NCBI GenBank assembly: GCA_018920345.1
Contig: JAHLMN010000010.1
Coordinates: 1-45,374 of the forward strand
Direction of reading: 5' to 3'
Length of the DNA stretch: 45,374 nucleotides
Source: Candidatus Aenigmatarchaeota archaeon
Lineage (GTDB): Archaea; Aenigmatarchaeota; Aenigmatarchaeia; CG10238-14
The notes beneath the pieces were generated by a model. It was given only the letters and a program-made list of their open reading frames with translations. It was not told where the DNA came from and made no database searches. The position numbers and the translations under genes were made by a program. Below, one piece after another: positions 18,315 to 20,111 of the stretch. Within the stretch, counting starts at the first letter, position 1; each line of letters opens with the position of its first letter.

Positions 18315-20111
18315 GTGGAAAAAGAGGTGGTTGTATTAGCTAACGAGAAATATATTAGGCAGCCCATTGTGTCGGTCCTCGGACATTAGCCGGCTTAACA
18401 GCAGCTAACCGAAAATGTAGACCATGGGAAGACTTCTTTGTTAGATGCAATTAGAGGTAGTGCTGTTAATGCAGCAGAGCCAGGGCAAATAACACAACAT
18501 ATAGGTGCAAGTTTTGTTCCCGCAAATGTAATAAAAAATGTTTGTGGAAACTTGCTTGAAAAATTAAAGATAGATATAATTATTCCTGGTCTGCTTTTTA
18601 TTGATACGCCTGGTCATGAGGCTTTTATAACTTTAAGAAAAAGAGGTGGGTCGGTTGCTGATCTAGCTGTTCTGGTTGTTGATATAAACGAAGGCTTTCA
18701 ACCACAAACAGATGAATCTTTAGAATTTTTAAAACAATTCAAGACTCCTTTTGTTGTTGCTGCTACTAAAATTGATTTAATATTTGGTTGGCAGAAAAAA
18801 CCTACTACTTGTTTTCAAGATAGTTATGGCTATCAACCAAGAGAAGTTCAAGATGAATTAGAGGCAAAGCTATATTCTTTGGTGGCTCAGCTTTATGAAA
18901 GAGGGTTCGAAGCAGAAAGATTCGATAGAATAACTGATTTTAAAAAACAAGTAGCAATTGTTCCTTGCTCTGGAAGAACAGGGGAAGGTATATCTGAGTT
19001 ACTTGTTATGTTAGCAGGTTTAGCACAAAGGTTTTTGAAAGATAATCTTATTTTATCAGAAAAAGCAAGAGGAAATGTTCTTGAAGTAAAAGAAGTAAAA
19101 GGATTAGGTACAACAATAGATGCAATAATTTATGATGGTGTAATTAGAGTTGGTGATACTCTAGTTGTAGGAAGTAAGAATGGAATAATAATAACAAAAA
19201 TTAAAGCATTGCTAAGACCACCTGAGCTTAAAGAATTAAGAATGGAAAAAAAGTTTGATTATGTGAAAGAGGTTGTTGCAGCTGCTGGAATTAAAATTGC
19301 TGCACCTAATCTTGAAAATGTCATCGCTGGCAGTCCTATTGTTTGTGTAAAGAATGAAGAAGAAATAGAAGAAGCAAAAAGAATAATAGAAGAAGAGACA
19401 GAAAAAATAGAATTTACAAAAGATATAGAAGGTGTTTTAGCAAAAGCTGACACATTAGGTAGTTTAGAGGCTTTAGTAAAAATATTAAATGATAATCAAA
19501 TACCTATTAAAAAAGCTGAAATAGGTCATGTAACAAAACAAGATGTTATAGAAATAGATGTAGTTAAAGATGAGGATAAAAAGGCAATTTTATGCTTTAA
19601 CGTTGATTTGTTAGAAGAAGCAGAATTATTAGCTAAAGAAAAAAAGATACCTGTCTTCAAAAGCAACATAATTTATAGAATAGTTGAAGATTATAAGAAA
19701 TGGAGAGATGATAAGAAAGAGAGAGAAAAGTTAGAAAAATTAGAAAGTGTTATTAGGCCTGCAAAAATAAGAATAATTCCTGGTTTTGTTTTTAGAAATA
19801 GACAGCCTGCTATTGTTGGTGTAGAAGTATTGGCCGGTGTTTTAAAAGTAAATACACCTTTGGCTTTAGAGGATAAAAAAGATGTTGGAAAAGTGAAGCA
19901 AATACAAAAAGAAGGTAAAAATGTCAATCAAATAAAGACAGGTGAGAAAGCAGCTATATCTATGGATGAACCTACTGTAGGAAGGCAAATAAATGAAGGT
20001 GATATTTTGATAAGTGTAATTACTCCACATAATTTGAGAATATTAAATGAAGTCTGGGACAAGTTACAAGACGATGAAAAACAACTTTTAAGAGAGTGGG
20101 GAATGGTTTAA
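18315..20111 (+). CDS. infB: Translation initiation factor aIF5B (IF-2-like), split by a 30-nt intron: exon 1 18315-18384, exon 2 18415-20111
   Basis: Exon 1 [24 protein letters not shown], exon 2 [35 protein letters not shown]...IDTPGHEAF...ATKID; joined frame gives 588 aa. Confidence 0.88.
18385..18414 (+). other. Putative 30-nt archaeal BHB-type intron within the aIF5B gene
   Basis: ATTAGCCGGCTTAACAGCAGCTAACCGAAA; in-frame TAG and TAA; TCGG-[ACA]-TTAGC...GCTAA-CCGA-[AAA] folding; excision restores GHVDHGKT. Confidence 0.82.

Follow-up and report, generated by a model that had tools for sequence, protein, structure and literature searches.

The window analysed here is a 45,374-nt stretch of contig JAHLMN010000010.1 from a Candidatus Aenigmatarchaeota archaeon. 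Its G+C content is 28%, and the genome to which it belongs comprises 816 kb in 27 contigs and is 95.5% complete. The gene for the initiation factor aIF5B is interrupted in this window, at 18385–18414, by 30 nt that carry two stop codons in frame (TAG at 18387–18389 and TAA at 18396–18398). Downstream of the insert the frame is that of aIF5B, with a match of 739.5 bits to TIGR00491 and the Pfam domains GTP_EFTU, IF-2 and GTP_EFTU_D4. When the insert is removed by the cutting rule of bulge-helix-bulge (BHB) introns, the P-loop motif GHVDHGKT is restored and the frame is open to 20111 (Table 1). The start codon of exon 1 is uncertain, the candidates being GTG at 18315 and GTG at 18327. Two other genes of the window are a full-length eukaryote-type DNA topoisomerase IB with three Pfam domains (15488–17194) and, on the minus strand at the contig edge (43170–45374), a fibre-like protein that combines Gp34 trimerisation and S74 chaperone domains.

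Table 1. The interrupted aIF5B gene and the parts of the predicted BHB element, in positions of the window
Feature	Coordinates	Strand	Remarks
aIF5B exon 1	18315–18384	+	open frame joining exon 2; ends one base into the His codon
Predicted BHB-type intron	18385–18414	+	30 nt; interrupts the His codon of GHVDHGKT in phase 1 (C|AT); position shared with 11 other species
aIF5B exon 2	18415–20111	+	(H)VDHGKT... to the stop codon; TIGR00491 and Pfam matches
Possible outermost helix, CCCAT	18363–18367	+	partner ATGGG at 18424–18428; in the minimum-free-energy fold only
Outer exon helix, GGTC	18374–18377	+	relaxed; register varies between genera
Outer exon helix partner, GACC	18420–18423	+	partner of GGTC
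Central helix, exon strand TCGG	18379–18382	+	pairs with 18409–18412 in 7/7 aligned sequences; 4/4 bp in all 12 species with an intron at this site
Central helix, intron strand CCGA	18409–18412	+	partner of 18379–18382
5' bulge, ACA	18383–18385	+	cut AC|A
3' bulge, AAA	18413–18415	+	cut AA|A; invariant in the alignment
Intron helix, 5' strand TTAGC	18386–18390	+	three pairs with both partners changed among 7 species
Intron helix, 3' strand GCTAA	18404–18408	+	partner of TTAGC

The element at 18385–18414 has the central features of a BHB: a central helix of 4 bp, 3-nt bulges on opposite strands, and a cut that restores the product. It departs from the strict hBHBh' form in its outer helix, whose 4 bp are set off from the 3' bulge by a 1x4 extra loop instead of abutting it directly. 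The aIF5B element is a relaxed BHB, a type that some tRNA-splicing endonucleases (EndA) accept as substrate (PMC6379350). An earlier note on this DNA had already read the insert as a BHB-type intron; its bases and coordinates are correct base for base, and the weak outer helix that it flagged as a departure is real. Folding z-scores are mostly unimpressive, and for the window sequence alone the folding energy is not significant (z = -1.24, with 26 of 200 shuffles folding at least as well), so the case for a BHB rests on the comparison of species. In 2000 dinucleotide shuffles of the window's intron, the central helix and the intron hairpin never arise together in exact register (0/2000).

The aIF5B genes of relatives were compared by searching 156 genomes of the phylum and then fetching the suspicious genes. 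The named records that best match the aIF5B alignment come mostly from Candidatus Aenigmatarchaeota; one of these, L057, has an aligned aIF5B identical to that of G020, a genome of the window's order. Introns at the identical nucleotide position, phase 1 in the His codon (site A), are found in 12 species from five families, the window's included; among the 134 matching genomes of this search, frame-keeping introns without stops could escape the count. All four members of the genus carry the insert, at 30, 30, 29 and 29 nt. Elsewhere in the family it occurs in other genera (G009, 27 nt; G006, 18 nt; G004, 24 nt), and further afield in four other families: G043 with 32 nt (f7), G022 with 20 nt (f4), G112 and G114 with 30 nt each (f30) and G076 with 30 nt (f17). 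The lengths at site A thus span 18–32 nt and are often not a multiple of three. There is no intron in G005, G007, G010 or G011, and the intronless G010 reads CTCGGACATGTAGACC, identical to the product that splicing is predicted to give in the window. One relative has a second, partial aIF5B (L024, L032; G011:C5), possibly a contamination.

The same architecture recurs throughout this set. Beside the complete central helix, every one of the 12 species has an intron helix of 3–9 bp in exact register, the 5' bulge reads AC|A (GC|A in G114) and the 3' bulge AA|A, and one cut rule restores GHVDHGKT in 12/12 cases. Dinucleotide-shuffled introns match this register in 0–4 of 2000 trials per species. 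In an alignment of seven of the introns, 95.5% of the cells pair, a share that falls to at most 45% when the partners are slid against each other, and three pairs of the intron helix are altered on both sides as compensatory changes. The outer exon helix is less regular, with 4–11 bp in varied registers and offsets. The earlier note had called for an alignment of aIF5B orthologues, and with inserts at the same base in 11 other species, frame-breaking lengths, compensatory pairs, a motif that is always restored and an intronless relative, its reading is borne out.

The exons on either side bear marks of selection of their own. Between the window's genome (G000) and G001, exon 2 has dN ~0.10 and dS ~2, and with dN/dS ~0.05 it is under strong purifying selection. 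The exon codons GTG TCG GTC CTC GGA are identical in the five intron-bearing species of genera g1 and g5; elsewhere, codons for residues that these species share agree at ~0.37–0.56, values that are approximate in comparisons with G009, where exon 2 differs in length by one codon. Such frozen codons point to constraint that acts through the RNA on the exon portion of the element. As the element includes coding sequence, some of its conservation reflects constraint on the protein.

A 30-nt insert with stops in a draft assembly of multiple contigs could be an assembly or sequencing error, or an intact second aIF5B gene could exist elsewhere; the earlier note had named both as threats to its reading, and both are ruled out. 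Twelve species with inserts at the same base, of differing lengths and with compensatory changes, reduce the probability of an error to practically nil. No second aIF5B was found in the organism's own genome at 95.5% completeness, the other matches being weak and to other GTPases. It is also very improbable that the gene is a pseudogene, or that it encodes a P-loop-less protein starting at the internal TTG at 18438, as the mechanical list of open reading frames (18438–20111) would have it: the low dN/dS of exon 2, the conservation of the P-loop and exon 1 in all intron-bearing species, and the single copy of a universal factor all argue against it.

Translational bypassing, in which the ribosome hops the insert and no RNA is spliced, deserves consideration since the insert is short, has a hairpin and places a stop directly after the would-be take-off codon. 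Bypassing requires, as established for T4 gene 60, that the take-off and landing codons match; here these would be CAT and AAT, which differ. Ahead of the stop, the unspliced message of G006 and G004 has the codon CAG, which bypassing would read as Gln, so that only joining at the RNA level yields the invariant His. Bypassing also leaves unexplained why BHB geometry and its cut rule fit introns at three positions of the P-loop, and we regard it as scarcely credible. Elements of other kinds do not fit 18385–18414 either. A group I or group II intron has a catalytic core of hundreds of bases, against 30 nt here, and there is no Rfam match in the window; an intein requires an open frame with a Cys/Ser start and an HN end, against two stops in 10 codons.

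The aIF5B gene is present in a single copy, and the 30 nt in its pre-mRNA are almost certainly an intron of BHB type. EndA would cut it out and RtcB would join the exons, and active aIF5B would require this splicing. After transcription, the 5' part of the message is predicted to fold around a helix of exon TCGG and intron CCGA, with the ACA and AAA bulges on its flanks and the intron hairpin as its cap. EndA would cleave both bulges between their second and third bases (18384/18385 and 18414/18415), and RtcB would join the exons to give GGAC|ATGTAGAC, which encodes a functional G1/P-loop; the 30-nt RNA released may be circular. An unspliced message would end at the TAG before the P-loop is complete, and as translation from the start would meet this stop within ~25 codons, it would yield a short peptide only.

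The genome encodes the components that this pathway would need. There is one EndA gene (L056:1474-2001, G000:C16), for a protein of 175 aa with alpha-type N and C domains (PF01974, 100.6 bits), and one RtcB gene (535 bits); the tRNA-Met and tRNA-Tyr genes carry introns with a strict BHB. In the family, 10 of 12 genomes have exactly one EndA match at E up to 10, and the two with no match at this threshold are both ~73% complete. This EndA is closest to the M. jannaschii enzyme (1A79), an alpha4 type that is described as narrow in specificity, the efficient cutting of relaxed motifs being assigned to (alpha-beta)2 and epsilon2 enzymes (PMC6379350). The lone alpha-type EndA resembles M. jannaschii alpha4, yet the outer helix of the aIF5B element is relaxed, and this is a point against the proposed pathway. 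Between its catalytic Tyr and His, as assigned by analogy from the family, the enzyme has a loop, GVKLKRGPKEA, that is six residues longer than that of M. jannaschii. This long basic loop is conserved in the family, and its alignment with the N. equitans subunit 3IEY_A is free of gaps.

The P-loop of aIF5B is interrupted at more than one place, a matter on which the earlier note is silent. A second site (site B) falls within the Lys codon (A|AG) of GKT; BHB introns of 18, 20 and 30 nt occur there in G025 (f4; L044:1521-1585), in G058 (f15; L256) and in L067, a record labelled Euryarchaeota (L067:670-800); the central helix has 3/4 pairs in G025 and L067. A Bathyarchaeota record (L123:1180-1310) has a 35-nt BHB-type insert that lies 2 nt away from site A, at CAT|GTA. 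A third site is taken up by inteins, at GHIDHGK|C in G033/L066 and at GHVDHGK|C in L094 and L105. They have ~150 residues in L066/L259 and ~550 in the two Archaeoglobaceae records (L094, L105). Introns at several sites together with inteins make the P-loop a hot spot. A tree of 85 aIF5B proteins requires a minimum of 7 changes for site A and 11 for all introns combined, a pattern that fits repeated gain, repeated loss, or both. It is possible, if somewhat doubtful, that BHB introns have targeted the aIF5B P-loop time and again in different archaeal phyla, at three nucleotide positions within ~12 nt. Such introns would have arrived repeatedly, through reverse splicing or by a homing-like route with the preference that inteins have for this invariant stretch. 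They would have been retained because splicing limits or regulates how a general initiation factor is synthesised.

The closest known system is the BHB intron of crenarchaeal cbf5 (Watanabe 2002; Yokobori 2009, PMC2738675), which likewise is short and BHB-like, lies in a protein-coding gene, in a catalytic codon, is cut between the second and third bulge bases, and shows patchy gain and loss. aIF5B differs in being a translational GTPase from another phylum, with predicted introns down to 18 nt and several insertion sites in one short stretch; there is also a single alpha-type EndA gene here, whereas the enzyme that cuts cbf5 introns is hetero-oligomeric. In Haloferax volcanii, the BHB intron of HVO_1309 (PMC7714728) is an EndA substrate in an mRNA, as predicted for aIF5B, but it lies in the untranslated leader (5' UTR), whereas that of aIF5B lies in coding sequence and its removal is needed for the protein. 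Archaeal tRNA introns, present in the same genome, share the central helix, the bulges and the cut rule; the aIF5B intron differs from them in residing in an mRNA and in having a relaxed outer helix formed by coding sequence. The aIF5B inteins are intervening elements in the same P-loop, but they leave at the protein level and sit at the Lys-Thr junction.

In the works consulted, the only archaeal BHB intron named in coding sequence is that of crenarchaeal cbf5 (PMC7714728, PMC2738675). No report of a BHB intron in aIF5B or another initiation factor was found in a search that had most subscription journals outside its range. As far as searched, then, the mechanism is of a known kind, and what is new is the gene, the phylum, the repeated use of one P-loop and the overlap with intein sites. 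Outside the phylum of cbf5 introns, a factor essential for translation would thus depend on BHB splicing, across many species and at several positions. The 16 natural introns, with their gains, losses and length variants, offer a test set for the origin and spread of BHB introns and for their recognition by a single-subunit EndA. Gene callers will truncate such aIF5B genes, with loss of the P-loop.

Within the organism's own genome the interruption of aIF5B stands out. When the proteins of G019 are compared with it (458 with matches), no conserved gene other than aIF5B shows a clear interruption of this intron-like kind; the comparison covers genes shared with G019, apart from very short exons at their ends. 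A genome scan for strict BHB motifs that restore a frame yields 722 candidates, with aIF5B among them and not ranked high; these candidates are mostly noise in AT-rich DNA, and the scan alone is no evidence. One gene conserved in G019 (G000:C2:29057-29633) lies in two frames with a 1-nt step at C2:29239, reflecting either a sequencing error or a frameshift.
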